Origin: Bacteroidetes bacterium QS_8_68_15
GTDB taxonomy: Bacteria; Bacteroidota; Rhodothermia; Rhodothermales; Salinibacteraceae
Assembly (NCBI GenBank): GCA_003023245.1
Contig: PXTR01000016.1
Span: 1 to 14,840 of the forward strand
DNA: 14,840 bases
Direction of reading: 5' to 3'
The notes beneath the pieces were generated by a model. It saw nothing but the letters and a program-made list of their open reading frames with translations. It did not search any database and was not told the DNA's origin. Within the stretch, counting starts at the first letter, position 1; each line of letters opens with the position of its first letter. Both the position numbers and the translations under genes were made by a program. This document shows, piece by piece, positions 2,335 through 13,416 of this stretch.

Positions 2335-2556
2335 GGGGAACGTGATGCGTAATGCGTGTTGCAACCTGAAGGCTATAGTGCTGGTCCGCAGTGCACTTCC
2401 TCACTTCGTTCAGGGCGCGTGAGGCTGCTGGTTCGCAGAGGCTGTACCCTACCCTCGAGCGCCAGCGCTTTCTGAATGGCCAAACACCAGTTGTGGAAGG
2501 CAATCTGCTACCGGTCTGCTTTCATCACGCATCACGTGTCACGCATTACGTGTGAG
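2335..2556 (+). repeat. Element D: armed repeat with conserved core
   Basis: The left arm (2340-2362) reads cgtgatg, cgtaatg, cgtgttg. The right arm (2523-2556) reads catcacg, catcacg, tgtcacg, cattacg, tgtgagg, the reverse-complement flavour. Between them lies a core of about 160 bases, the longest of the family. It contains GCTTTCTGAATGG at 2467, then after a longer gap GTGGAAGGCAATC, which matches GAAGCAGGCAATC in element C. About 80 additional bases at 2370-2450 have no match at the other loci. The right arm overlaps the 3' end of rfbA and encodes its last residues TRNA and its stop. The left arm runs up to within four bases of the rfbC ATG. Confidence 0.75.
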
Positions 2557-3417
2557 GTCTAACAAATACCGTCCGTAGTCATTTTTTTTGAGCGGCTCGG
2601 CGAGGTGCCTGACGTCCTCGGCGTCGATCCAGCCCTGGCGGTAGGCGATCTCCTCGGGGCAGGCGATCTTGAGCCCCTGTCGCGCTTCGATGGTTTCCAC
2701 GAAGTGCGACGCCTGCAGGAGCGAAACGTGCGTCCCCGTGTCGAGCCACGCGACGCCGCGGCCCATGCGCTCCACGCGCAGCGCGCCCTCGTCGAGGTAC
2801 GCGCGGTTGACGTCCGTGATTTCCAGCTCGCCGCGGTCGGACGGTTCCAGTTCGCGCGCGATACGGGTCACGCGCTCGTCGTAGAAGTAGCAGCCGGTCA
2901 CGGCGTAGCGTGAGCGCGGTTGCTCGGGCTTTTCTTCGATGCTTGTGGCGCGGCCCTCGTCGTCGAAGTCCACCACGCCGTAGCGCTCGGGGTCTTTCAC
3001 GCGGTAGCCGAAGACCGTCGCGCCTCCCTCTCGCTCGGTGCGGCGTGCAGCGCGGCGCAGCATCCATGTGAGGCCCTGCCCGTAAAAGAGGTTGTCGCCC
3101 AGGATGAGCGCCACGGGCGCGCCGTCGACGAAGTCGTCCCCGATGACAAACGCTTGCGCGATGCCCTCGGGGCGCGGCTGCTCGGCATAGCTCAGCGACA
3201 GGCCCCACTGCGCCCCGTCGCCCAGCAGCTCGCGGAAGCGCGGCAGGTCGCGCGGCGTCGAAATGACGAGGATCTCGCGCACCTCCGCCCGCATCAGCAC
3301 CGAGAGCGGGTAGTAGATCATCGGCTTGTCGTAGACGGGCAACAGCTGCTTGCTGACCGCCGTGGTGACCGGACGCAGCCGCGTGCCCGCCCCGCCGGCC
3401 AAGATGATGCCTTTCAT
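2539..3417 (-). CDS. rfbA: Glucose-1-phosphate thymidylyltransferase
   Basis: The 292-residue protein matches RmlA length. It makes dTDP-glucose from dTTP and glucose-1-phosphate, the entry step of dTDP-rhamnose synthesis. The nucleotidyltransferase signature [11 protein letters not shown] is at 8-18, followed by [18 protein letters not shown], then [13 protein letters not shown] with the metal-binding Asp near 110, [24 protein letters not shown] and WLDTGTH. The start is the ATG at 3417, because MKGIILAGG is the conserved N-terminus; a longer open frame upstream runs through tRNA and repeat sequence. The final TRNA and the TGA are encoded by the right arm of element D. The gene lies between the tRNA-Gly terminator and rfbC. 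Confidence 0.95.
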
Positions 3418-3451
3418 GGCGCAGGGCGCGGGGCGTGGGGCGCAGAGCGTT
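3418..3451. repeat. Single heptamer array, GCGGGGC flavour
   Basis: On the + strand the units are gcagggc, gcggggc, gtggggc and gcagagc (3421-3448), with three bases to the ATG of rfbA. There is no opposing array and no core. It occupies the rfbA leader directly before the start codon, the same position other arrays take at downstream genes. Four units of seven with a fixed GC at the phase boundary make chance unlikely. Confidence 0.6.
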
Positions 3452-3477
3452 TCATCGCGGAACGGAGGGAGTACGTC

Positions 3478-3517
3478 AAAAGAAAAGCGAAGCCGGCCGC
3501 ACGGGCTGACTTCGCTT
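3478..3517 (-). terminator. Intrinsic terminator after tRNA-Gly
   Basis: On the minus strand an AAGCGAAG arm pairs with CTTCGCTT eight for eight. The stem is extended inward by TCAGCC against GGCCGG with one mismatch, around a five-base loop. A T-rich tail (TTTTCTTTT) follows at once. It lies about 20 bases after the tRNA 3' end, so it should end the tRNA transcript before rfbA. Confidence 0.85.
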
Positions 3518-3537
3518 CCGCGAGAGATTGCGATGTT

Positions 3538-3612
3538 TGGAGCGGGTGAGGGGATTCGAACCCCCGACCTTCTGCATGGCAAGCAGATGCTCTGCCACTG
3601 AGCTACACCCGC
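3538..3612 (-). tRNA. tRNA-Gly (anticodon GCC)
   Basis: All parts of the cloverleaf are visible on the minus strand: acceptor GCGGGTG pairing with CACCCGC, D arm GCTC..GAGC, anticodon stem TCTGC/GCAGA around loop TTGCCAT (anticodon GCC), and T arm GGGGG-TTCGAAT-CCCCT. The discriminator base is T, as expected for bacterial tRNA-Gly, and CCA is encoded. A promoter lies upstream and an intrinsic terminator downstream, so it looks like a stand-alone, intact gene. Confidence 0.97.
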
Positions 3613-3655
3613 GTTTGGTTTTCGCGCTGCCATGCCTTTCGGCGCGCGGGAGTTA

Positions 3656-3687
3656 CAATGCTACGGACTGGGCGGTGTTCCTGTCAA
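3656..3687 (-). promoter_or_regulatory. Candidate promoter of tRNA-Gly
   Basis: On the minus strand TTGACA at 3687-3682 is followed, 18 bases later, by TAGCATTG at 3663-3656. This fits the Bacteroidota vegetative consensus TTG-about 20-TAnnTTTG with one mismatch, and it also keeps a canonical -35. Transcription would begin about 36 bases before the tRNA. Spacing and both boxes are seen directly; activity is inferred. Confidence 0.6.
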
Positions 3688-3702
3688 TGGCTTCACGCAA
3701 AC

Positions 3703-3885
3703 TTATCGCGTCTCGGCTCGAAGGGTGGACTCGTCGACCGATTCTATGTCAGCGCGTTTCCCGTTCGAGCGAAAAAGCAGGCCCGCCGACCCGTCGCCGG
3801 TCGTTTCGACGATCACCGCGAGGACCTGGCCGGGGTGCGTGACGAGGATCATCAGAAAGCCGGGGCCGGAGGTCTCGTAATCCAA
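3703..3885 (-). CDS. Possible small protein, uncertain
   Basis: The minus frame reads about 60 residues from a TTG at 3885 (LDYETSGPGFLMILVTHP, then VLAVIVETTGDGSAGLLFR) to a TAA at 3703. Codons favour G or C at third positions, and the alternating hydrophobic pattern suggests beta strands. The frame stays open upstream without ATG until a TGA near 3950. A short ATG frame in another phase begins right after the GNAT stop, so a one-base frameshift would join them into a protein of roughly 85 residues. I do not recognise a family. It may be a decayed gene or chance. Confidence 0.25.
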   Translation of the reverse strand: MDYETSGPGFLMILVTHPGQVLAVIVETTGDGSAGLLFRSNGKRADIESVDESTLRAETR

Positions 3886-3955
3886 TTCCAGTCGAACGTC
3901 GGGCCGTCTACGTTTGGAGAAAGAGGAAGTCGCCGCGCGCCTGCGCCTTCATTCC

Positions 3956-4492
3956 TCAGAATCCGATCCGCCCGCGCTCGGGCCGTGCTTCGTCGTCGCG
4001 CTTCCCGCGTTCCAGTTCCACCGTCATCGTCACGGCAAACGGATCGCCGCCGACGCGTTCCCAGAACGCCCGCCCCGCGTCGTTTCCGTGCAAGACGCGC
4101 AGGCGCAGGCGGTCGGCGTCCAGTTCGTCAGCCCAGTCGCGCAGCGCCCCGGCCAGGCGGCGGCCCACGCCCTCGCGGCGCGCCTCGGGCGCGACGTAAA
4201 ACTCGTCCACGAAGACCTCCGACGCCTCGGCGTAGATCGGCGGCGGGCCCCAGCGGTGCGCCGTGGCGAACCCAACGAGTTCGGCGTCTCCCTCCTCGCT
4301 CGTTCGCTCGGCCACGACCGTGTGCTGCGTCCCGTCGTCGATCCAGACGGGGAAATCGTTGTCGAAGCGCTCGCGCGCGTCGTCGGCGACCTGAAAGCGA
4401 GCGTCGCAGGCAGCCTGTTCTTCCAGAAAGGCCGTCCAGAGCGCTGCGACGCGGTCTTTGTCCTGCTTCTCAGCTTGGCGAACCGTGAGCAT
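3956..4492 (-). CDS. GNAT family N-acetyltransferase
   Basis: The 178-residue protein has the GNAT order: N-terminal strand VRQAEKQDKDRVAALW, a central strand VDEFYVAPEARR, the acetyl-CoA pyrophosphate loop RREGVGRRL at 105-113 (the R/Q-x-x-G-x-G/A motif), and the later VLHGNDAGRAFWERVG (134-148), where an Asn and aromatic residues close the fold. The substrate cannot be predicted. It follows asd on the same strand with a gap consisting only of four heptamer units, so it is probably cotranscribed with lysC and asd. The charged tail after residue 160 (ERGKRDDEARPERGRIGF) looks disordered. Confidence 0.85.
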   Translation of the reverse strand: MLTVRQAEKQDKDRVAALWTAFLEEQAACDARFQVADDARERFDNDFPVWIDDGTQHTVVAERTSEEGDAELVGFATAHRWGPPPIYAEASEVFVDEFYVAPEARREGVGRRLAGALRDWADELDADRLRLRVLHGNDAGRAFWERVGGDPFAVTMTVELERGKRDDEARPERGRIGF

Positions 4493-4520
4493 GGGCGATT
4501 TCCGATGGGCGATTGGGGAT
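4493..4520. repeat. Four-unit heptamer array filling the asd-GNAT gap
   Basis: On the + strand the units are gggcgat, ttccgat, gggcgat and tggggat, exactly 28 bases. They span from the base next to the GNAT ATG to the first base of the asd stop triplet. The whole intergenic gap is therefore the array. On the minus strand the flavour is ATCGCCC, close to the CAATCGC flavour at 11592-11626. No opposing arm or core is present. Confidence 0.7.
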
Positions 4521-5647
4521 CAGGCCGGCGCTTGCGTTCGCTCGGTGCGCGACTTCAGGTAACCTTCTTCCGCCAGCAGTTCGGCGTTGAGGAGGGCACC
4601 GCCGGCGGCGCCGCGCACGGTGTTGTGCGAAAGGAGCGCCATCTTGATGCCCATGATCGAGCACTCGCGCACGCGGCCCACCGAGGTGGTCATGCCCCCG
4701 CCCAGGCCGGCGTGGCGGCGCGGCTGCGGGAAGCGCTCCTTCTCGAAGACGCGAATGAACTGTTCCGGCGCGCTGGGTAGTTCTCGTCCGTCGGTCGCCG
4801 GGCTGAACGAACGCAGCGCGTCTTTCACCTTTGCGGGGCTCGGCTCGCCCGTCAGGCGGACCGAGACCGCCTCGAGGTGCCCGTCGACGACGGCCACGCG
4901 GTTGCACTGCGCGCTGACGGGGAAGCGCGTGTGCTGCACATCGTCGCCGCCTCCGTCGGGGAGCGTGCCCAGAATCTTATGCGGCTCGGAGGCGATCTTG
5001 TCTTCCTCCCCGCCGATGTACGGCAGCGCATTGCCGACGGCGTCGAGCGACGGCACGCCGGGGTAGCCGGCTCCGCTCAGGGCCTGCATCGTGACGACCT
5101 GCACTGCCTCGACGCCGAAGGCTTCCTGGAGCGGCGCAAGCACGCAGACGAGGCCGACGGTCGAGCAGTTGGGATTGGTCACGACGAAACCGCCGCCGGA
5201 ATCGCCATTTGCTCCGGTCGCCCCGTCGCCACCGCCGTCGCTCCAGAACTGCCGCTCGATGAGCGCGGCGTGCCCCGGATTGATTTCCGGCACCAGCAGC
5301 GGCACGTCGGCCTGCATGCGGTAATTTTTGGCGTTGGAGATGACCGGCAGGCCAGCGGCGGCGAAGGCGCGTTCGATTTGCCCGGCGACCGACGAGTCGA
5401 GCCCACTGAAGACGAAGTCGCAATCGTCGAACGCCTCCGGCACGCACTCCTGCACGGTCAGGTCGGCGATGGCCTCAGGCCGAGGCGTGCCCGCCAGCCA
5501 GTGAGCCGCTTCGCGGTACGATTGGCCGGCGGATCGCTCCGAGGCCCCCAGCGCGGCGACGTCGAACCACGGGTGGTCGTCCAGAAGGCGAATGAAGGTC
5601 TGCCCGACGGCGCCGGTCGCGCCCAAGATGCCTGCGGTTAGGTTCAT
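4520..5647 (-). CDS. asd: Aspartate-semialdehyde dehydrogenase (archaeal/yeast-type)
   Basis: The 375-residue protein reduces aspartyl phosphate to aspartate semialdehyde, the branch point for lysine, diaminopimelate, threonine and methionine. The NADP-binding GILGATGAVGQ is at 7-17; the catalytic Cys161 is in NPNCST; ALSGAGYPG and EEDKIASEPHKI follow; the catalytic His is in VVDGHLEAV (about 257). These and the length resemble the archaeal/yeast type. A Gly-rich stretch at 137-153 just before the active-site strand looks like an insertion. The start is the ATG at 5647, because MNLTAGILGATG fits the family; the frame remains open upstream but there translates a repeat element. lysC lies upstream across element B. 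Confidence 0.93.
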   Translation of the reverse strand: MNLTAGILGATGAVGQTFIRLLDDHPWFDVAALGASERSAGQSYREAAHWLAGTPRPEAIADLTVQECVPEAFDDCDFVFSGLDSSVAGQIERAFAAAGLPVISNAKNYRMQADVPLLVPEINPGHAALIERQFWSDGGGDGATGANGDSGGGFVVTNPNCSTVGLVCVLAPLQEAFGVEAVQVVTMQALSGAGYPGVPSLDAVGNALPYIGGEEDKIASEPHKILGTLPDGGGDDVQHTRFPVSAQCNRVAVVDGHLEAVSVRLTGEPSPAKVKDALRSFSPATDGRELPSAPEQFIRVFEKERFPQPRRHAGLGGGMTTSVGRVRECSIMGIKMALLSHNTVRGAAGGALLNAELLAEEGYLKSRTERTQAPA

Positions 5648-5705
5648 GTCGTTGGAGTTCGTTTGAGAAGAGGGGCTGTGGTTCGTGGGTCGGCTTGCTC
5701 TGAAA

Positions 5706-5862
5706 ATGTGCGTGATGCGTATCGCGTGATGCGTGAAGTGGCTTTCGATAAACGGCGAGGATAAATTCAAGCTCCAATGCTTTCGGAAGAGCGTTGCCAA
5801 TAGAACCAAAGCGCAGACAATGCGGGCTCTTTTCCTCACGCATCACGAGTCACGCATCACAC
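5706..5862 (+). repeat. Element B: armed repeat with conserved core
   Basis: The left arm (5711-5738) reads cgtgatg, cgtatcg, cgtgatg, cgtgaag. The right arm (5834-5861) reads cctcacg, catcacg, agtcacg, catcaca, the reverse-complement flavour. The core of about 95 bases contains AAATTCAAGC at 5763 and then GCTTTCGGAAGAGCG with GCCAATAGAACCA (5779-5807), gapless against element C over about 30 bases. It lies between lysC and asd, both on the minus strand. Its right arm starts about 36 bases after the lysC stop, so here no stop codon is overlapped. Confidence 0.8.
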
Positions 5863-5898
5863 TCGCCTCCCCGCAAGTCGAAACGGCGCGTTTACCCG

Positions 5899-6885
5899 CT
5901 ACGCCTGCTTCCTCGCCAAGACGCCTTCAGGCCGAATCCGCGTGCCGTCCCCCTCCGGCTTGGTGGTGCAGCGAATGTGCGCCGGGATGCCGGCTTCCAG
6001 GAGCGGGCGCAGGGCCTTCGGGTGCATCCCCAGCCCGCCCTCGTCGTTGAGGCGCGCGGCCTGCTCCATCGTCAGTTCGTCGATGCGTTCGGCGTCGGGG
6101 TCGGTGTTGGGGTCGGCGGTGAAGAGGCCGTCCACGTCGGTCCAGCGCTCGAAGGCGTCGGCTTCGAGAAAGGCCGCCACCAGCGCGGCGGAATAGTCGC
6201 TGCCTTCGAAGCCGAGGGTGGTCGTTCGCCCATCGGGCGTGCTGCCCACATATCCGGCCAAGAGCGGCACGACGCCGGGGGCGCAGCCGGCAAACCAGCC
6301 GCGCACGTTCTTGGCGGTGGCCGCGCGGTCGACGCGCGCCTCGCCGAAGGCGTCGTCGGTGACGAATAGCTCGGTGGACACGCCGTAGGCGGCATCCAGG
6401 TCCTCCGCGCGCAACGCCTCGGCCAGGAGCGGCACCGAACACAGCTCGCCGGTCGCCAGCACGCGGTCGCGCAGTTCCGGCGTCACGCCGTGTTCGCTCG
6501 CCTCCCGGAGTGCGTCGGCGCAGCGTTCCAACTCACGCTCCAGGAGCGGCGCGTAGCGGTCGCGCCCGTCGGGCGGAAGCACAGCGTCGGCGTGCTCGGT
6601 GTGCCGCTCGCGCATCGCTTCGGCAGCCTGCTCGGGGGCGAGGCGTCCGGCGGCGGCGTCTTCGAGCGCAGCGTCGAGCTGGCGCGTCACGCCGCTGAGC
6701 GCGGAGGCCACCACGACGGGGCGCCCGCCCTCTGCCGCGCGCGCCTTGACAATCTGCGCGACCTGACGCATCCGCCCGGGTTCCCCCATGGACGTGCCGC
6801 CGAACTTCATGACGGTGGCCGGGCGGTCCGGCGTGCCGTTTTCTGACGTGTTCATCTCAGGCGCAGCGTCTCGGGAAGTCTGCAT
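5899..6885 (-). CDS. lysC: Aspartate kinase without ACT domains
   Basis: The enzyme phosphorylates aspartate, the first step to lysine, threonine and methionine. The 328 residues cover the kinase fold only: VMKFGGTSMG at 25-34, VVVASALSGVTRQLD, LATGELCSVPLL, TTLGFEGSDYSAALVAAF, WTDVDGLFTADP, and a final GMHPKALRPLLEAGIPAHIR with GDGTRI. Most stand-alone aspartate kinases run to 400-450 residues, with two C-terminal ACT domains for feedback control. Here the stop follows the kinase domain within 12 residues and no ACT remnant is visible downstream. Candidate starts are the ATGs at 6885, 6855 and 6810; I kept 6885, the first ATG after the array. asd and the GNAT gene follow. Confidence 0.9.
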   Translation of the reverse strand: MQTSRDAAPEMNTSENGTPDRPATVMKFGGTSMGEPGRMRQVAQIVKARAAEGGRPVVVASALSGVTRQLDAALEDAAAGRLAPEQAAEAMRERHTEHADAVLPPDGRDRYAPLLERELERCADALREASEHGVTPELRDRVLATGELCSVPLLAEALRAEDLDAAYGVSTELFVTDDAFGEARVDRAATAKNVRGWFAGCAPGVVPLLAGYVGSTPDGRTTTLGFEGSDYSAALVAAFLEADAFERWTDVDGLFTADPNTDPDAERIDELTMEQAARLNDEGGLGMHPKALRPLLEAGIPAHIRCTTKPEGDGTRIRPEGVLARKQA

Positions 6886-7047
6886 GAGGGCGTGTGGCGT
6901 ATGGCGTAAGGCTGCCGGTGTACAGACGCTGGAAAGAAATTCGAAGCAGAACCGTTTCTTGAATGGTCCTGCCGGTAGAATCAGAGCGCGAGCGGTTCAA
7001 CGTGCTGTCATCACGCATCACGTTTTACGCATCACGTGTTGCGCATC
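6886..7047 (+). repeat. Element A: armed repeat with conserved core
   Basis: The short left arm (6890-6911) reads cgtgtgg, cgtatgg, cgtaagg. The long right arm (7012-7047) reads catcacg, catcacg, ttttacg, catcacg, tgttgcg, catcgcg. The core of about 100 bases contains ACAG at 6922, then AAATTCGAAGC at 6938, then GTTTCTTGAATGG and GCCGGTAGAATCAG (6954-6984). It lies in the divergent lysC/folD region, right against the lysC ATG. Its core has the same orientation as the other four copies, so orientation does not follow gene direction. Confidence 0.8.
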
Positions 7048-7086
7048 GCGCGCTGCCTTCTGCTTTTTTCAACTATGGATGGGGAC

Positions 7087-7117
7087 GAACGATAAGAAGT
7101 GCGCGGTCCACCCCAAA
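7087..7117 (-). promoter_or_regulatory. Weak candidate promoter of lysC
   Basis: On the minus strand TTTG (7117-7114) is followed after 19 bases by TATCGTTC (7094-7087), which fits the Bacteroidota pattern TTTG-19-TAnnTTTG with two mismatches in the second box. Transcription from here would carry element A in the lysC leader. The evidence is the boxes and spacing only. Confidence 0.25.
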
Positions 7118-7188
7118 CCCGAGAGCAAAAATTTCGCCGCTTATTTGCGCGCCTCCGCGCCGCGAGGCGGCACATGCGCCGCCCCTCG

Positions 7189-7219
7189 TTGACAGCGCCC
7201 GTCGCGCAGGCTACCTTTT
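7189..7219 (+). promoter_or_regulatory. Candidate promoter of folD
   Basis: TTGACA at 7189-7194 is followed by TACCTTTT at 7212-7219, giving TTG-20-TAnnTTTt, one base off the Bacteroidota vegetative consensus. Transcription would start near 7226, leaving a leader of about 150 bases before the folD ATG. A 12-base tandem repeat starts inside the second box and covers the predicted start point. Confidence 0.55.
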
Positions 7220-7236
7220 CTGTGGCGGTTTCTGTG

Positions 7237-7307
7237 GCGGTCAGCATCCAGCGATCAGCCTCTCGCCCCGAAAGGCTGACCGCGAAAAGCTGACCGCATC
7301 ACGCGGT
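7237..7307 (+). promoter_or_regulatory. folD leader with competing hairpins
   Basis: GCGGTCAGC at 7237-7245 is the exact reverse complement of two copies of GCTGACCGC, at 7275-7283 and 7289-7297. An inner GATCAGCC (7253-7260) can also pair with the first copy, GGCTGACC, allowing one G-U. The second copy overlaps a small hairpin ACCGC-ATCAC-GCGGT (7293-7307). The structures exclude one another, as in attenuators and riboswitches. The region lies between the candidate folD promoter and the ATG. I do not recognise a known riboswitch class. Confidence 0.4.
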
Positions 7308-7378
7308 ATGACCTTCGCCCCCTGACGGCCGAACGCTTCCGAAAACGCCCCGCTCTTTTTCATTCACCCGCCCCCGCC

Positions 7379-8290
7379 ATGCCCGCCTCCGACACCGACT
7401 CGACCCTCATCGACGGGCGCGCCCTCGCTGCCGACGTGCGCGAAGACGTGCGCCGCGAGGTCGCGGAGCACACCGACGCGGGCCGTCGCGCACCAGCGCT
7501 GCGCGTCATCCTGGCCAACGGCAGCGCCGCCTCCGCCTCCTACGTGCGCGGCAAGGAAAAAGCCGCCGCCGAGGCGGGGATCGACTCCGATACGCTCCGC
7601 TTCGACCCGGACGACGTGACCGAGGACGAACTGCTCGGCACGCTCTCACAGCTCAACGACGACGAGGGCGTCGATGGCATCCTCGTGCAGCTCCCGCTGC
7701 CGGACCGCATCGACGAGGCGAAGGTCATCCACGCCATCGACCCGGCGAAGGACGTGGACGGCTTTCACCCCGAAAACACGGGCCGCCTGATGACCGGCGC
7801 GGACGGCTTCGTCCCCGCCACCCCCGCCGGCGTCATGGAAATGCTGCGCCGCACCGACGGCGTGGAAACGGAGGGGGCGCACGCTGTCATCGTGGGGCGG
7901 TCGAATCTGGTGGGCCGCCCGCTGGCGAACCTGCTGCTGCACCGCGACGCCAACGCCACGGTCACGGTCTGCCACAGCCGCACGCGCGACCTCGGCCGGC
8001 ACACGCGCACCGCCGACCTCCTCGTCAGCGCCGTGGGGCGGGCCGGCCTCATCCGCGGCGACATGGTGAAGGCCGGCGCCTGCGTGATCGACGTGGGCAT
8101 CAACCGCATCGACGACGACACGCGTGAGAAAGGCTACCGCCTCGCCGGCGACGTGGACTTCGCAGCCGCCCGCAAGCGCGCCTCGAAGATTACGCCCGTC
8201 CCCGGCGGCGTGGGCCCGATGACGATTGCGATGCTTCTGAAGAACACGCTGAAAGCGGCCGTCGGGCGGTCGTCGGAAGGTGAAGCGTAA
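7379..8290 (+). CDS. folD: Bifunctional methylenetetrahydrofolate dehydrogenase/cyclohydrolase
   Basis: The 303-residue protein interconverts 5,10-methylene- and 10-formyl-tetrahydrofolate with NADP, supplying one-carbon units for purines and formyl-Met. Family marks are SYVRGKEKAA with Tyr55 and the catalytic Lys59, ILVQLPLP at 101-108, KDVDGFHPENTGRL with Asp127, PATPAGVMEML, the Rossmann motif VIVGRSNLVGRPLANLL at 170-186, VIDVGINR, and ITPVPGGVGPMTIAMLL near the end. The N-terminal region is acidic, as in salt-adapted relatives. The ATG at 7379 starts a normal FolD N-terminus with little extension. The last codons and the TAA stop run straight into the left heptamer array of element C. 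Confidence 0.96.
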   Translation: MPASDTDSTLIDGRALAADVREDVRREVAEHTDAGRRAPALRVILANGSAASASYVRGKEKAAAEAGIDSDTLRFDPDDVTEDELLGTLSQLNDDEGVDGILVQLPLPDRIDEAKVIHAIDPAKDVDGFHPENTGRLMTGADGFVPATPAGVMEMLRRTDGVETEGAHAVIVGRSNLVGRPLANLLLHRDANATVTVCHSRTRDLGRHTRTADLLVSAVGRAGLIRGDMVKAGACVIDVGINRIDDDTREKGYRLAGDVDFAAARKRASKITPVPGGVGPMTIAMLLKNTLKAAVGRSSEGEA

Positions 8291-8432
8291 AACGTGAAAC
8301 GTGAAACTGCTCGTCCACAGGGGGCAACAAAGAATCCGAGCGAAGGCGCTTTTTGAACAGCGACGCCGGGTAGAAGCAGGCAATCCGCTTTCGACCCGGC
8401 GTCCTCACGTTTCACGCAATACGTTTTACGCC
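8279..8432 (+). repeat. Element C: armed repeat with conserved core
   Basis: The left arm (8287-8307) reads cgtaaaa, cgtgaaa, cgtgaaa, preceded by gtgaag that still belongs to folD. The right arm (8403-8430) reads cctcacg, tttcacg, caatacg, ttttacg. The core of about 95 bases contains ACAG at 8317, AGAATCCGAGC at 8331, then GCTTTTTGAACAGCG and GCCGGGTAGAAGCAG (8348-8378). It fills the folD-mscS gap; the left arm holds the folD stop, and the right arm ends six bases before the mscS ATG. Confidence 0.8.
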
Positions 8433-8436
8433 CCCC

Positions 8437-9552
8437 ATGCCCTCCGCTTCTCCCGAAACGGCCACGACCGCCGCTCCGCCCCAGTCGGCGGCGCAACAGC
8501 TCATGGGCGCCGCGCAGAGCGACACGACCGGGCCGGATGCCGTTCCGCCCGACTCCTCGACGATTCAGCGCCTCAGCGCGGAGGTCAGCGAGGCGACGCG
8601 GCTGCTCATGGGCGGGGAGTGGGACTTGCTCTGGCAGCGCGTCTACGCCCTCACCATCGACTTCTTCGTCGGCTTCGTGCCGCGCCTGGTGCAGGCGCTC
8701 ATCGTGCTGGGGCTGCTGTACCTGCTCTACCGCGGCGTGCGAGTCGTGCTGTTTCGCGTGCTCGACCGCTCGCAGCGCGTCGACGCGGGGCTTCAGGGTA
8801 TTTTGCTAAAGGTCTACCGCTTCGTGGCGGCCGTTTTCATCGGCGTGCTCGTCCTCGACCAGATCTTCGGCAGCATCGCAGGGCTGGTCGCCGGCCTCTC
8901 AATTGCCGGGATCGCCATCGGCTTTGCCGCGCGCGACTCGCTGGAAAACTTCATCAGCGGCGTCACCATCATGATGGACAAGCCTTTCCGCGTCGGCGAC
9001 AACGTGGAGGTCGACGGCCAGTTCGGCACCGTCGAGGACATCACGCTGCGCTCCACGCGCGTGCGGACCCTCAACAACGAGGTCATGGTGATGCCCAACA
9101 CGCAGATGATCAACCAGAAGATGCTGAACCACACGATGAAGGACATGCTGCGGGTGGAAATCTTTTTCGGCATCGCCTACAAGGAGCGCCCGCAGGAAGC
9201 GCGCGAGGTGGTCCTGACGCTCGTGGACGGCGACAACCGCTGGCACCCGGACTACGAGCCGTCGGTGGTCGTGACGGAGATGGGCGATTCGAGCGTCAAC
9301 ATGCGCCTGCGCCTGTTTCTGAAAAACCCGAAGCAGGAAGTGGCCGTGCGCTGGGAGTACACCGAAAAGGTACGCGAAGCACTGCGCGACGCGGACATCG
9401 AGATTCCCTTTCCCCACCTCCAGCTCTTCGTCGACGAGACGAAAGCCTTCGAGGGCGCGCCCTGGATGCCGGCTTCGGGACCGCAGACCGCGGACGGCAG
9501 CGGACCGCCGCCGAAGCAGCTGGGCGACGGCTTCTCGGCGGACGACTCCTGA
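8437..9552 (+). CDS. MscS-family mechanosensitive channel
   Basis: The 371-residue protein has a low-complexity N-terminus of about 60 residues, membrane helices at about 74-99 and 124-143, and the pore helix region GLVAGLSIAGIAIGFAARD (149-167), with small residues Gly and Ala alternating as in MscS TM3. Next come SLENFISGVTIMMDKPF, then the beta domain RVGDNVEVDGQFGTVEDITL and RSTRVRTLNNEVMVMPN, and an alpha/beta C-terminal domain to about 335. The tail is Pro/Gly-rich. Such channels release osmolytes on hypo-osmotic shock, which would suit a salt-adapted host (inference). The ATG at 8437 follows the right arm of element C. The gene converges on vapC with a gap of 44 bases. Confidence 0.93.
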   Translation: MPSASPETATTAAPPQSAAQQLMGAAQSDTTGPDAVPPDSSTIQRLSAEVSEATRLLMGGEWDLLWQRVYALTIDFFVGFVPRLVQALIVLGLLYLLYRGVRVVLFRVLDRSQRVDAGLQGILLKVYRFVAAVFIGVLVLDQIFGSIAGLVAGLSIAGIAIGFAARDSLENFISGVTIMMDKPFRVGDNVEVDGQFGTVEDITLRSTRVRTLNNEVMVMPNTQMINQKMLNHTMKDMLRVEIFFGIAYKERPQEAREVVLTLVDGDNRWHPDYEPSVVVTEMGDSSVNMRLRLFLKNPKQEVAVRWEYTEKVREALRDADIEIPFPHLQLFVDETKAFEGAPWMPASGPQTADGSGPPPKQLGDGFSADDS

Positions 9553-9596
9553 TGAGCCGGCCACATGCCTCAGATGCACGACCGCTTTGAGAGGAG

Positions 9597-9971
9597 TCAG
9601 TCGCGAATCCAGTCTTCGATGTCGAGCGCTTCAATACGGTCGTAGTGGCGGACGTTTCCCGTGACGAGCACGGCGCCGCGGGCGAGCGTGACGGCGGCGA
9701 TGAGCAGGTCGGCATCAGCCAGGCGTTGCCCTTCGAGTTCAAGATCAGCTTTGAGCCGGCCGAAGCGGCGTGCGGCGACGGCGTTCATTTCGAGCACGTC
9801 GAGCGTTCCGAGAAAGTCGTCGACGGCTTCTCGGTTTTCACGCGGAGCCGACGACTTGGCCGCTCCATAGTACCATTCGGATGCGACCGTCCACGTCGTC
9901 ACCACACGGTCATCGGTCTGCCGACGACGTTCGATGACGTGATTGTTGCCGCGCAGGATCTCGATTACCAC
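9597..9971 (-). CDS. vapC: VapC-like PIN-domain toxin, start uncertain
   Basis: The 124 residues from the GTG at 9971 match the PIN ribonuclease fold of type II toxins: WTVASEWYYGA with the second acidic residue, ADADLLIAAVTLARG with the third and fourth acids, and LVTGNVRHYDRIEALDIEDW at the end. The first catalytic Asp of the family lies in VIDTDVVIEILRG, and the codons for VIDTD are upstream of this GTG (9986-9972). No ATG, GTG or TTG precedes them before an in-frame TGA. The sequence there, GAGTAATCG, overlaps the vapB stop, so a start such as GTG in GTGA could have mutated to GTAA. The gene is either started at a non-standard codon, or is inactive. Confidence 0.8.
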   Translation of the reverse strand: MVIEILRGNNHVIERRRQTDDRVVTTWTVASEWYYGAAKSSAPRENREAVDDFLGTLDVLEMNAVAARRFGRLKADLELEGQRLADADLLIAAVTLARGAVLVTGNVRHYDRIEALDIEDWIRD

Positions 9972-9982
9972 GTCTGTATCGA

Positions 9983-10258
9983 TTACTCTCTCAGCCTGAC
10001 CTCCCGACCGGCGGAGCGGGCAGCATAGAGATCACGAATCAGCTTCTCTGGAGGAGCATCCGACTTCCAGCATCCTGCAAGCCGCTTCCACTGTTGTACC
10101 TGCATGTCTCTCTCATCGGAAACGTCTTGCTCATACGACATTCCTGTCTGGAGCACGTGGAGGGCCTGTTGCGAAAGGCTTTTTCGGCGCGAATTCGCCT
10201 GTTCGCGGAGCCGCTTCAGCAACTCGTCGGGCACGTCCTCAATCGTCAGCGTAGCCAT
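9983..10258 (-). CDS. vapB: VapB/FitA-like antitoxin
   Basis: The 91-residue protein begins MATLTIEDVPDELLKRLRE, followed by ANSRRKSLSQQALHVLQ, the ribbon-helix-helix DNA-binding fold of FitA/VapB antitoxins (one strand, two helices). The remainder (WKRLAGCWKSDAPPEKLI) is the usual toxin-binding tail, ending in RSAGREVRLRE. The ATG at 10258 sits inside the 3' end of the Uma2-like gene with an overlap of 13 bases, so translation is probably coupled. Its stop overlaps the extended vapC frame. By family precedent it neutralises the PIN toxin and represses the operon. Confidence 0.85.
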   Translation of the reverse strand: MATLTIEDVPDELLKRLREQANSRRKSLSQQALHVLQTGMSYEQDVSDERDMQVQQWKRLAGCWKSDAPPEKLIRDLYAARSAGREVRLRE

Positions 10259-10749
10259 ATCGGCTTGTCTCGTTTGGGGGCGGTGATCGGTCCGGAATTC
10301 GGATGGGTACGCCAATTTTGCCTGCCTATTTCGTTTCGCAACGTTTCGTTGATCAGATCCGTTTCCCACTGCAGCGCGCGGCTCGACTGCTCCCGCTCAC
10401 CCTCCGGCCCGAAGAAGCGCACCGTTCCGCCAGTGCGCACCAACCCGACCTCTTTGGCCCCGCGCTCGAACAGCAGAGCGCGCTTCTCTCTCATTTCCGC
10501 CTCCGTGTTCGAGGAGGAGAGCACCTCGACGCAGCGTTCCGGCGCGACGGGGCTTGCTTCGGCGTCGTCAGGGATCCGCGCAGCACGGTCCGACGAGATC
10601 CAGACCACGTCCGGTACCTTGGTGCCGTCAGCGGTCACGACGGCGAACGCCATTCCGATGCGCCCGGCGGCGTGCTCGTCGAGATGCTCTTCGATGAGCC
10701 GCCCGATGCGGTATTGCGCAAAGCTGTTGTCAGATTTGTGCGGGATCAA
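10246..10749 (-). CDS. Uma2-family (DUF820) protein, probably N-terminally truncated
   Basis: The 167 residues fit the Uma2 family of PD-(D/E)XK-fold proteins: a helix SFAQYRIGRLIEEHL, VPDVVWIS with the first acidic residue, CVEVLSSSNTEAEMREK with the Glu and the Lys, and LLFERGAKEVGLV. The usual N-terminal part, including a line like RYELIDGEL, is missing. The only start is a TTG at 10749 next to a run of six T. Immediately upstream, in another phase, is a coding-like tail ending at 10746. The C-terminal 30 residues are AT-richer and not typical of the family. The family is common in cyanobacteria and Bacteroidota and its role is unproven. Confidence 0.7.
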   Translation of the reverse strand: MIPHKSDNSFAQYRIGRLIEEHLDEHAAGRIGMAFAVVTADGTKVPDVVWISSDRAARIPDDAEASPVAPERCVEVLSSSNTEAEMREKRALLFERGAKEVGLVRTGGTVRFFGPEGEREQSSRALQWETDLINETLRNEIGRQNWRTHPNSGPITAPKRDKPIWLR

Positions 10750-10841
10750 AAAAGCGGGTCTTCGGGCGTGTTGGGGTTGTTGTCGCGCTCGGTGCGCGGG
10801 GACGGGTAGACGTTGCGCGTGCGTTCGAACGCCTCAGGCAG
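10746..10841 (-). pseudogene. Orphan C-terminal tail, SusD-like
   Basis: On the minus strand a frame of about 31 codons ending at TGA 10748-10746 reads LPEAFERTRNVYPSP, then RTERDNNPNTPEDPLF. Third positions are almost all G or C, unlike a shadow frame. SusD/RagB-family proteins end with a similar pattern (hydrophobic-Tyr/Trp-Pro-x-Pro, Glu, then NPN). No other part of such a gene is present; the frame runs into the HAD gene in a different phase. It may be a remnant left by recombination. Alternatively, one extra T in the six-T run would fuse it to the Uma2-like frame, making it that gene's front end. Confidence 0.35.
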
Positions 10842-11520
10842 TTTCGCGCCAGCCGTTCCCGAGCCGCTCGGCCAGTGCGGCGAAGCGGTCGGCGACGACG
10901 TGCGCACCGGCTTCGCGAAGCGGCTCCTCGGGCATCGACGTGGTGAGTGCAGCCACGCGGCAGCCGGCCGCGCGAGCGGAGCGCACGCCGCTGAGCGAGT
11001 CCTCGACGACGAGGCAGCGCTCCGGCGTCACGCCCAGCTTCTCGGCCGTGAGACGGTACGGCTCGGGGTCGGGCTTCGAGCGGGCGACGTCCTCGGCGGT
11101 GACGAACGTCTCGAAGTGTTCCTCCCAGCCGAGCGGGTCGAACGCCAGCTCGCGCGTGTGCTGCGAGGCGCTGGTGCAGAGTCCAACCCGGTAGCGCGCG
11201 GCGGCGGTTTCGACAAAGGCCTCGGCCCCGTCCATCGGCACGAGTCCGTCCAGGAGGTTCCAGAACTCCTCCCGCTTGCGCTCGATGAGGTCCTGGGCGC
11301 TCACGTCGTCGTCGGTGTGGTGGTCGGCCACGTGCTCCAGCACTTCCGCATCGGTGCGGCCCTTGAACTCGTCGTAGACCGCCTCGGGCACGGTGATGCC
11401 GAAGTGGTCGAAGACGCGGCGCTTGGCCTCTTCGTGCAACGGCTCGGAGTCGATCAAGACCCCGTCGAGGTCGAAAATCACCGCTTCAAGGTCGTCGGTC
11501 AGGGAGTCGTGCTCGGGCAT
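10834..11520 (-). CDS. HAD-IA phosphatase (beta-phosphoglucomutase-like)
   Basis: The 228-residue protein has the four HAD motifs: FDLDGVLIDSEPLH with nucleophile Asp17 and Asp19; LCTSAS near 114-119; SKPDPEPY with Lys149; and VVEDSLSGVRSARAAG with Glu173/Asp174. A helical cap lies between residues 25 and 95. DGVLIDSEPLH is typical of the beta-phosphoglucomutase and phosphoglycolate-phosphatase-like branch, so the substrate is a small phosphorylated metabolite that cannot be named. The start is ATG 11520, right after array F. The last residues (WRETA) lie over the orphan tail that follows, so the C-terminus may be slightly altered. surE lies upstream. Confidence 0.88.
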   Translation of the reverse strand: MPEHDSLTDDLEAVIFDLDGVLIDSEPLHEEAKRRVFDHFGITVPEAVYDEFKGRTDAEVLEHVADHHTDDDVSAQDLIERKREEFWNLLDGLVPMDGAEAFVETAAARYRVGLCTSASQHTRELAFDPLGWEEHFETFVTAEDVARSKPDPEPYRLTAEKLGVTPERCLVVEDSLSGVRSARAAGCRVAALTTSMPEEPLREAGAHVVADRFAALAERLGNGWRETA

Positions 11521-11523
11521 GAG

Positions 11524-11626
11524 CTTCGCGGTTGCGAGTTTCGGGTTGCGGGTTCGGGTTGCGGTCTGTTGTCAGCCAAAAGCCGTCATCTGTCAATCGC
11601 CAATCGCCGATCGCCAATCGTCAATC
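11524..11626. repeat. Heptamer array pair, GCGATTG flavour
   Basis: The right array (11594-11628) reads caatcgc, caatcgc, cgatcgc, caatcgt, caatccg: clean units of seven. The left array (11527-11560) reads looser units such as gcggttg, cgagttt, cgggttg, cgggttc. A spacer of about 30 bases separates them, without the core seen at elements A to E. On the minus strand the right array begins inside the surE stop codon (GATTGA) and supplies its last codons. The left array runs up to the HAD ATG. The pairing between the arms is imperfect. Confidence 0.65.
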
Positions 11627-12348
11627 CGCGTCCCACGTCCAGTCGTTGAGCGCGGCGAGGTGGTCGTAGGCGGTGAGGTCGTGCTGAAGCGGCGTGATCG
11701 AGACGGAGCCGTCGTCGATGGCGTCAAGGTCGGTGCCGTCGCCCTCGTCGAGGTCCACGAACTCGCCGGCGAGCCAGTAGTAGGGCTGGTCGAACGGGTC
11801 GACGCGCCGGGCGAAGGCCTCCTCCCAGCGCGAGTGCGCCTGCCGCGTGACGACGAGCTCGCCCAGTTCCTCGACGGGACGATTGGGAATGTTGACGTTC
11901 AAGAGCACCCCGTCCGGCAGGCCCTTCTCCAGCACGCGCCGGGCCACCCGCCGGGCCACCTGCGCGGCCGCGTCGTAGTGGCCGCCGTCCCACGCGCACA
12001 GCGAAAAGGCCGCTGCGTCGACCCCCAGGATCGACGCCTCGGTCGCCGCGCTGACCGTGCCGGAGTAGAGCACGTTGACGGCGGTGTTGGGGCCGCGATT
12101 GATCCCGCTGACCACCAGCTGCGGCGGGCGCGGCAACAGCTGGTGCGCCGCCAGCTTCACGCAGTCCGCCGGCGTGCCGCTGACGGCGTACGCGCCGGCG
12201 ACTCGTCCATCGGCGCGATGACGTGCACTTCGCCGAGATTGCCCATCACCCCGGCGAGCGCCGCGATGCCCTCCGAGTCGATCCCGTCGTCGTTGCACAC
12301 CAGAATCAACGGGGGGTTTTCGGGCGAGCCGTCGGTTCGATCTTCCAT
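11621..12348 (-). pseudogene. surE: surE, split by an internal out-of-frame deletion
   Basis: SurE is a metal-dependent 5'/3'-nucleotidase. The front (ATG 12348 to about 12211) reads [20 protein letters not shown] and EVHVIAP, with the metal-binding Asp pair at residues 20-21. The back, in another phase (about 12210 to 11621), reads [47 protein letters not shown], and ends normally. Between the halves, family members carry about 20 residues, including the metal-ligand Ser and the GxxxxLT..PL segment; these are absent. A loss of roughly 60 or more bases that also shifts the frame fits both facts. A single base-calling error would not remove that segment. Key ligands Asn (SGIN) and Asp remain, but Ser is lost. 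Confidence 0.8.
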
Positions 12349-12394
12349 CGCGTTGCTCAGGTAATGGGGGGTCGTCCGTTCGCTACACTCACTG

Positions 12395-12531
12395 GTTCGT
12401 GGGTCGTCCTCACCACGAGGGCATGACACAAGGCCCCTCGCTGACGCTCGCTCGTTCGTTCGTTGTTCGTGGATCGTGCTTTTCTACTACCGTCGCCGGC
12501 GGAACGAGAACGAACAACGACTCACGAATCA
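12395..12531 (+). repeat. Element E: armed repeat with short core
   Basis: The right arm (12504-12531) reads aacgaga, acgaaca, acgactc, acgaatc. The matching left flavour lies at 12460-12480 (tcgttgt, tcgtgga, tcgtgct), with a further stretch ttcgtgg gtcgtcc at 12395-12410. The core is short: GCTTTTCTAC, then GCCGGCGGAACGAG (12478-12508), which aligns without gaps to GCTTTTTGAA and GCCGGGTAGAAGCAG of element C. It lies between panB and surE, and the right arm overlaps the panB stop (TGA 12531-12529). Confidence 0.6.
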
Positions 12532-13416
12532 ATAACTTTCCTCCTCGCCCGGAAAGTCGCGCTCGCGCACGTCTTCCACGTAGCGCTCGACGGCGTCGAC
12601 GACCGTTTCGTCGAGGCGGGCGTAGCGGCGCACGAAGCTCGGATTAACATCGGTCGTCAGCCCCAGGAGGTCGTGCGAGACGAGCACCTGCCCGTCGCAC
12701 CCGTCCCCTGCCCCGATGCCGATTACCGGGATCGAGAGGGCCTCGGACACCTCCTTTCCCAGCGCGGCGGGAATCTTCTCCAGGACGAGCGCAAAGCAGC
12801 CGGCCTCTTCGAGCCGCTCAGCGTCGCGGCGGAGCCGGTCGGCCTCCGCTTCGTCCTCGGCGCGCACCTGCCACGTGCCAAACTCGTAGATCGACTGCGG
12901 CGTGAGACCGAGGTGGCCCATCACGGGAATCCCCGCCTCCACGATGCGCTCCGCGGCCCCGGCGACCGGCGCGCCGCCTTCCATCTTCACCGCATGTGCT
13001 CCGGTTTCTTTCATCACGCGGATCGCCGAGGCGAGCGCTTCTTTGTTGTCGCCCTGAAAGGACCCGAAGGGCAAATCCACCACCACGAGCGCCCGCTCGG
13101 TGCCGCGCACGACGCACTGCGCGTGGTAGACCATGTGGTCGAGCGTCATCGGCAGGGTCGTCTCGTGGCCGGCCATGACGTTGGCGGCGGAGTCGCCGAC
13201 CAAGAGCACGTCCACCCCTGCGCGGTCGAGGAGGCGCGCGGAGGTGTAGTCGTAAGCGGTGAGCGTGGCAATGGGCGTGCCGGCCGCCTTGAGCGCGCGC
13301 AGCGTCTGCGTGGTGACGCGCTCGGCATCGGTCGGGCCCGCGTAGTCGTCGTCGCCGCCCGCAGAGGGCGCCGCGGCGCCGGAGGAAGCGGTCGTCGAAG
13401 CCGGGGGCGTGCTCAT
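12529..13416 (-). CDS. panB: 3-methyl-2-oxobutanoate hydroxymethyltransferase
   Basis: The 295-residue enzyme moves a hydroxymethyl group from methylene-tetrahydrofolate to 2-oxoisovalerate, giving ketopantoate for pantothenate and coenzyme A. Marks are [28 protein letters not shown] with metal-binding Asp75, [11 protein letters not shown] with Asp114, HAVKMEGG with Lys144 and Glu146, [12 protein letters not shown], the catalytic Glu213 in VLEKIP, and PVIGIGAG. About 35 disordered residues precede the conserved domain (Ser/Ala/Thr, then [11 protein letters not shown]). The ATG at 13416 is the only clear start. The gene stands between the skp terminator and surE. Its TGA is part of a heptamer array. 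It uses the cofactor pool that folD serves. Confidence 0.95.

Follow-up and report, generated by a model that had tools for sequence, protein, structure and literature searches.

What are the mirrored arrays of heptameric repeats that stand at several gene borders in Bacteroidetes bacterium QS_8_68_15, and to which kind of element do they belong? The question was addressed with a stretch of 14,840 nucleotides from contig PXTR01000016.1 (the window), in which five such elements, A to E, had been proposed. Four of them, A to D, enclose related copies of a short core, and we lean towards the view that these four are protein-less, non-coding relatives of the intervening sequence (IVS)/S23 elements of 23S rRNA, with arms that form hairpins. 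The observation from which the analysis started (the sequence-only reading) is real and, once element E is removed, broader than was claimed. The parts of the elements, each with its basis, are the following:

2341..2362, + strand: left heptamer arm of element A, GTGATGC GTAATGC GTGTTGC (sequence, pair search)
2363..2418, + strand: family 2 repeat of element A, between left arm and core (by-eye comparison)
2419..2524, + strand: core of element A, left end GTGAGGCTGC, 3' half degenerate (profile matches)
2525..2553, + strand: right (mirror) arm of element A (sequence, pair search)
5711..5737, + strand: left arm of element B, pairing with the right arm in the fold (sequence, pair search)
5738..5835, + strand: core of element B (profile E-value 8.7e-12)
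5836..5860, + strand: right arm of element B (pair search, fold)
6891..6912, + strand: left arm of element C, GTGTGGC GTATGGC GTAAGGC (sequence, pair search)
6906..7010, + strand: core of element C, left end GTAAGGCTGC (profile E-value 1.3e-11)
7011..7052, + strand: right arm of element C (sequence, pair search)
8280..8306, + strand: left arm of element D, overlapping the folD stop codon (sequence, pair search, fold)
8301..8404, + strand: core of element D (profile E-value 0.003; identity 0.60 to the L036 copy)
8405..8430, + strand: right arm of element D, ending just before the mscS start (sequence, pair search, fold)
12390..12540, + strand: element E, mirrored arrays of another flavour, without core (no profile match)

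The nearest relatives used for comparison were the metagenome-assembled genome (MAG) Bacteroidetes bacterium SW_4_67_19 (genome G001, stretch L001) and QS_9_68_14 (genome G002, stretch L002). Both stretches are syntenic with the window over most of its length, the sister G001 showing about 85% identity. The mirrored arrays described at A to D were indeed found as heptamer arms: 24 mirrored pairs of the form GTRNNNC were present in 276 kb of sequence (the window, L001 and 20 further G001 loci chosen for their matches), versus 0 in each of five first-order Markov shuffles. The commonest arm unit is GTGATGC (72 of the 207 units retrieved as GTRNNNC), and stop codons are carried by 157 of the 207 units. 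In the two elements that were folded, B and D, the arms formed hairpins with z-scores of -3.96 and -6.97, respectively. Across the core, the two innermost arm bases vary together (G..C 25, A..T 4, mixed 4, for the 33 of 40 elements that were scored; Fisher 0.005), and the concordance of whole arms inside elements is weak (own 0.740, permuted 0.696, with 215 of 5000 permutations as high). The proposal of a structured RNA with long stems held for the stems of B and D and failed for a covarying core, as RNAalifold gave 0 consensus pairs on 30 core copies. A search of the window against Rfam returned no match of the structured-RNA kind at E-values up to 1.

Membership in the core family was judged with a profile built from 26 G001 copies, without any copy from the window. 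This profile recovered B (E-value 8.7e-12), C (1.3e-11), A (7e-4, partial) and D (0.003); the two matches that followed in the window stood at 0.94 and 2.3, against 1.6 at best in 20 shuffled windows and 3.7 in the window read backwards. Element E had no match in the profile search of the window and, searched alone, scored 3.6 bits on the other strand; its mirrored repeats are GTTCGTG / CGAACAA by eye. Of the five cores that had been counted, A, B, C and D were thus confirmed and E dropped out. The core is about 91 bases long. For alignment, 30 of 40 profile matches were kept and ten weaker or partial ones were omitted; the mean pairwise identity of the 30 copies is 53%, the maximum 73%. Sixteen core columns are at least 85% conserved versus a maximum of 7 in 2000 shuffles, and the variance of column conservation is 0.029 versus 0.0115 in the highest of 2000 shuffles, kinship among the copies not being controlled in either comparison. 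Gene neighbours were assigned by a frame test, which was right for 8 of 8 known window genes, ORF (open reading frame)-based calling being unreliable in GC-rich DNA. With this test, 31 of 38 copies from the window and the G001 loci were placed between genes, 12 against and 10 with the direction of the genes, 6 between convergent and 3 between divergent ones. The common orientation noted for the window holds for A to D and does not hold in general. A coding role of the core was set aside after inspection of the consensus frames by eye only. Single queries with the window C copy against plasmids and with an L034 copy against phages gave no match.

A search of relatives for the core, as the sequence-only reading had suggested, showed the elements to be a single family of small non-coding sequences dispersed over gene borders. 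In G001 the profile matched at least 87 places at E-values up to 0.01 (150 of 1132 candidates were scored), in G010 11 places and in G009 2, with additional related cores visible by eye in G009. These counts come from relatives' genomes, several of which are incomplete MAGs. G002 had 4 places, one at 8e-9 and three near 0.005, two of the latter without arms by eye. One marginal match each in G021 (E-value 0.01) and G027 (0.007) was taken as chance, because no arms were visible by eye in either stretch. No match was obtained in the other 21 of 27 genomes (21 of the 26 family relatives of G001). The arrays reach further than the core: of 114 genomes of the order, 24 have mirrored short-loop arrays, as have 13 of the 296 genomes in a phylum sample, versus 0 and 1, respectively, in the backwards control. 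In G048, G055 and G061 the listed array interiors are unlike the window core. The left end, GTRAGGNTGC, recurs across the order, the pattern CGTRNNNCGTRAGGNTGC giving 241 matches in 34 of 114 genomes versus 17 backwards (sums from the table), and some copies in G055 and G061 have inverted ends.

Array sites often persist although their contents change: a site may hold a core, arms only, an inverted core or nothing. Heptamer repeats were present in L001 at 4 of 4 window core sites. At borders A and D, where the window has a core, L001 has arms alone; at border B it has an inverted core, and at border C a right arm with tandem family 2 repeats. Border D carries arms and a core-like interior by eye in the more distant G009, where the G001 profile gives no score, and no arrays were seen at this border in L002 and in the Salinibacter-like genomes (an inferred label for some relatives, G014-G016 among them). 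Over the stretches of 22 relatives, arrays were visible by eye at border D in two (L001 and L055). The folD neighbourhoods of 20 more family genomes have largely kept their gene order.

The same behaviour was seen between G001 and G010. At border J1 both have a core, in opposite orientation, and at J2 G001 has a core and G010 no array, with anchors on both sides. At J7 and J8 the core of G001 has no counterpart in G010 next to a single anchored side, J4 has a core-like interior by eye in G001 versus short arms in G010, and at J5, where G001 has a core, one of the two contig ends of G010 carries a right arm. Presence/absence differences at the same borders, which had been proposed as a check, therefore exist, J2 in G010 being an example. 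Since G010 has no array at J2, nor beside the single anchored side at J7 and J8, arms and core may be gained or lost as a unit. At P3 and P4 the core is common to both species in the same orientation. Shared-site cores of two species are thus opposite in 2 of 4 cases, and the partner at the shared site was the closest kin in 0 of 3 ranked cases (ranks 3, 32 and 18 of 32), while the J1 core could not be ranked. Cores inverted relative to the core of the sister species at an orthologous border were located at L001 5029-5167 and L046 386-477. In two Salinibacter-like genomes with 90-97% identity in most of the aligned pieces, 6 of 6 comparable sites have repeats in both (one of the six is the edge of an IVS-protein (IVP) gene; a seventh site had no anchors). 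In one such element (L105/L106) the arms differ by about 27-30 bases, in repeats of a 14-base unit, with the loop kept, and at two shared sites one species has arms of the GTG type where the other has the GTA type.

IVS/S23 elements carry a gene for a four-helix-bundle protein (PF05635/TIGR02436). Such genes were sought with an own profile of 127 IVPs, run over 1.71 Mb of loci. In four relatives of the same order, the same arms and the left end GTRAGGNTGC enclose a PF05635-type gene. In G073, a gene for a protein of 147 residues stands between CGTR arms with inverted ends GTAAGGGTGC..GCACCCTTAC, and its product scores 57.9 bits with PF05635 (cut-off 33.8) and 70.6 bits with TIGR02436 (cut-off 24). 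In the Salinibacter-like G014, G015 and G016, genes matching the IVP profile with 224-229 bits lie between arms of the GTGATGC type. Their leader before the ATG, given for G015 as GTGAGGCTGCTG..TCTGACCG and as CGTGATTCGTGAGGCTGCTGTGTTCTGACCG, resembles by eye the left end of the core, GTGAGGCTGCTGGTCTACGG.

The association was then quantified on 49 non-redundant IVP loci (9 of 58 were dropped as redundant; L103, L104 and L111, among the 49 kept, are orthologues of each other). Their own mirror score was 24.2 versus 11.6 after permutation, the highest of 5000 permuted means being 13.9, and the flanks agree with themselves at period 7 (0.69-0.70), all other lags from 3 to 12 giving at most 0.50. 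A clean control drew on 54 plasmid and viral loci, of which 39 were usable, with an IVP frame starting at ATG, complete flanks and an upstream flank distinct from the others; the control ORFs came from the same plasmid and viral loci, at least 250 bases from the IVP gene. A mirror score of at least 17 was reached at 36 of 39 IVP genes versus 1 of 20 other ORFs (p 2e-11), and 28 of 39, versus 0 of 20, showed period 7 in both flanks. Among eight IVP genes of cyanobacterial plasmids inspected by eye, six are enclosed by mirrored heptamers, in flavours other than those above; the heptamers of L193 lack a simple mirror relation, and L191 has none. In Azospirillum (L195), the IVP frame lies within a bacterial 23S/large-subunit rRNA match that spans the whole locus, with heptamers mirrored by eye.

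The likeness to rRNA IVSs concerns the terminal inverted repeats forming a long stem (here in the folds of B and D), the heptameric repeats at the ends, which are mirrored in the window and at IVP loci, the sporadic distribution and, by eye, the left end that A to D have in common with the IVP elements of relatives. Elements A to D differ in being intergenic at gene borders, with no rRNA match in the window, and in having no protein gene, the core of about 91 bases being unlike a PF05635 gene. For IVSs, sections of PMC4990558 describe cleavage by RNase III, a stem of 28 base pairs and heptamers upstream of the S23p frame, with two to three GACAGAT copies at that position in the IVS of Coxiella burnetii. 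The intergenic repeats may be stripped-down members of this IVS-protein mobile family. By analogy with rRNA IVSs, the arm hairpin would let RNase III cut the element from a transcript, and insertion between the genes of an operon would therefore be tolerated. Copies would spread by a trans-acting process or by recombination between the many similar arrays. The position of an array would stay comparatively stable, while its interior (core, other repeat or nothing, in either orientation) would be replaced and the length of the arms would change.

Several results weigh against a kinship of A to D with IVS/S23 elements. Movement was not seen and target-site duplications were not noticed. The IVP profile scan found no IVP frame in the window, and the one in G001 (L037) is truncated by a contig end and has another repeat flavour upstream. 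The core interior is no more similar to the DNA of four IVP genes than shuffles are, and an origin of the core as a relic or simple deletion form of an IVP gene was rejected; 'derivative' is therefore too strong a word, and 'relative sharing the ends' is allowed. The shared left end GTRAGGNTGC is short, was compared by eye and may partly be a ribosome-binding leader. Among the 49 IVP loci, only 21 score above the 99th percentile of the permuted pairs (pairs that have flavours in common), and six have a mirror score of at most 12 (L191, L195, L213, L230, L236 and L238, of which L195 is mirrored by eye). An earlier, unclean control gave a score of at least 17 at 14 of 108 other ORFs, at least some of those listed overlapping an IVP gene, and the plasmid loci represent 18 of 35 records with a match.

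A rather unlikely alternative is that the arrays make themselves: heptamers born by replication slippage would be mirrored by template switching in hairpins, and ectopic gene conversion would carry core and family 2, in either orientation, from one array to a similar one, with no dedicated enzyme and no connection with IVPs. This account fits the changed arm length with kept loop in L105/L106, the other interiors within the heptamers of L001 at all four window core sites, the opposite orientation of half of the four shared cores and the shared-site partners that are not closest kin. No Y1 transposase was found in G001, G010 and G002, and a reverse transcriptase was missing from seven of eight genomes, as it would also expect. 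It is opposed by J2, array-free in G010 between two anchors, and by J7 and J8, likewise beside a single anchor (eight borders were compared), by a left end that is conserved throughout the order around interiors that differ widely and by the weak arm concordance, and it leaves the link with PF05635 genes unexplained. An ordinary miniature inverted-repeat transposable element (MITE) of a DNA transposon is improbable. In this reading, the GTRAGGNTGC ends would be its terminal repeats, and the heptamers would be either the target of insertion or subterminal repeats. Copies dispersed in both orientations, lineage-specific interiors with common ends and the inverted ends in G055 and G061 would agree with it, and 'MITE-like' is the closest of the readings offered by the sequence-only reading. 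However, inspection of a few stretches showed no transposase gene enclosed by such ends (the families searched being Y1_Tnp and RVT_1 only), the coding interiors found are of the PF05635 type and no known transposase, and the empty border J2 shows no clear target-site duplication by eye, nor was one noticed elsewhere. No two of the 30 aligned copies are more than 73% identical, so there was no recent burst among them.

A regulatory or structured RNA selected at gene borders is very improbable. The uneven conservation of core columns and hairpins stronger than those of shuffles speak for it; the missing consensus structure in the 30 cores, the lack of any such Rfam match for the window, the absent orientation bias (12 against, 10 with genes) and the arrays at border D in just 2 of 22 relatives' stretches speak against it. 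REPIN/RAYT elements, as portrayed in parts of PMC3116915, are likewise intergenic, hairpin-forming, dispersed and non-autonomous. They differ in that no RAYT (REP-associated tyrosine transposase) was found in the core-rich G001, no REP motif was seen, and the arms here are heptamer arrays. Y1_Tnp, the RAYT family, had 0 matches in the incomplete genomes G001, G010 and G002 and 1 in G009, and the REPIN-like option was abandoned. Retro-mobility by a resident reverse transcriptase was also rejected, RVT_1 being found in 1 of 8 genomes (G015 only) and not in the incomplete G001. Since several genomes are incomplete MAGs, the absence of such engines is weak evidence.

Beyond the kinship of A to D with IVS/S23 elements, a wider proposal can be made tentatively. 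Mirrored heptamer arrays could be the terminal repeats of one large mobile-element family, with PF05635 elements as the coding form, rRNA IVSs as those members which landed in 23S rRNA, and the window cores as protein-less forms that can outnumber them. If so, PF05635 would be the element's own nucleic-acid-handling factor. An accepted explanation of bacterial tandem heptamers is not known to us. A proposal of polymerase slippage is cited in an excerpt of PMC4679880, and a passage of PMC4990558, written more than 25 years after 23S rRNA IVSs were discovered, describes their function and origin as unclear. One element type linking intergenic mirrored heptamers, non-coding cores and PF05635 genes would give both puzzles a shared, testable answer, for which Salinibacter and Nostoc would be culturable models. 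In Nostoc, short non-coding small dispersed repeats (SDRs) of 21-27 bases were reportedly found embedded in tandem heptamers by Elhai et al. in 2008; they are not known to have mirrored arms or an IVP link. No paper stating the link of heptamers, core and PF05635 was found in searches of an open-licence library, the heptamers of one IVS being already in the part of PMC4990558 cited above. SDRs are also named in a section of PMC3116915. The intergenic tandem heptamers (TAACTGA) of Beggiatoaceae are similar, but the relevant part of PMC4679880 reports 169 direct sets and one inverted, against mirrored pairs round a core here. The sole solved relative of the IVPs found by sequence was 2gsc (E-value 0.0015), given as a PF05635 structure in a portion of PMC10053308, where PF05635 is also said to resemble Avd of diversity-generating retroelements.

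The window is GC-rich, and its translated frames were read as rfbC, rfbA, asd, aspartokinase, folD, mscS-like, HAD hydrolase, surE, panB and skp-like; a tRNA-Gly is also present. The family 2 repeat (GCGCCCCGACTG..GGTCATCCCCTCGCGGGGG..AGTACTC) lies in or beside heptamer arms, sometimes in tandem (window 2363-2418, L001 6153-6372, L035, L042, L043 and L053), and related repeats adjoin or replace arms in G001. Three of the eight PF05635 genes inspected on cyanobacterial plasmids (L187, L192 and L193) stand, with heptamers, between CRISPR-cas genes. Outside the order sample, the 3.7-Mb G377 (L185, L186) has 87 matches to the mirrored-heptamer pattern, overlaps counted, of the GTGAGAC flavour. The window itself contains arrays of other flavours at 985-1080 (GGTCTTT/GGGTCTT), 4491-4520 (GGGCGATT) and 11521-11626 (GGTTGCG with CAATCGC), which are partly mirrored and partly common to L001 or L002 at the same borders.

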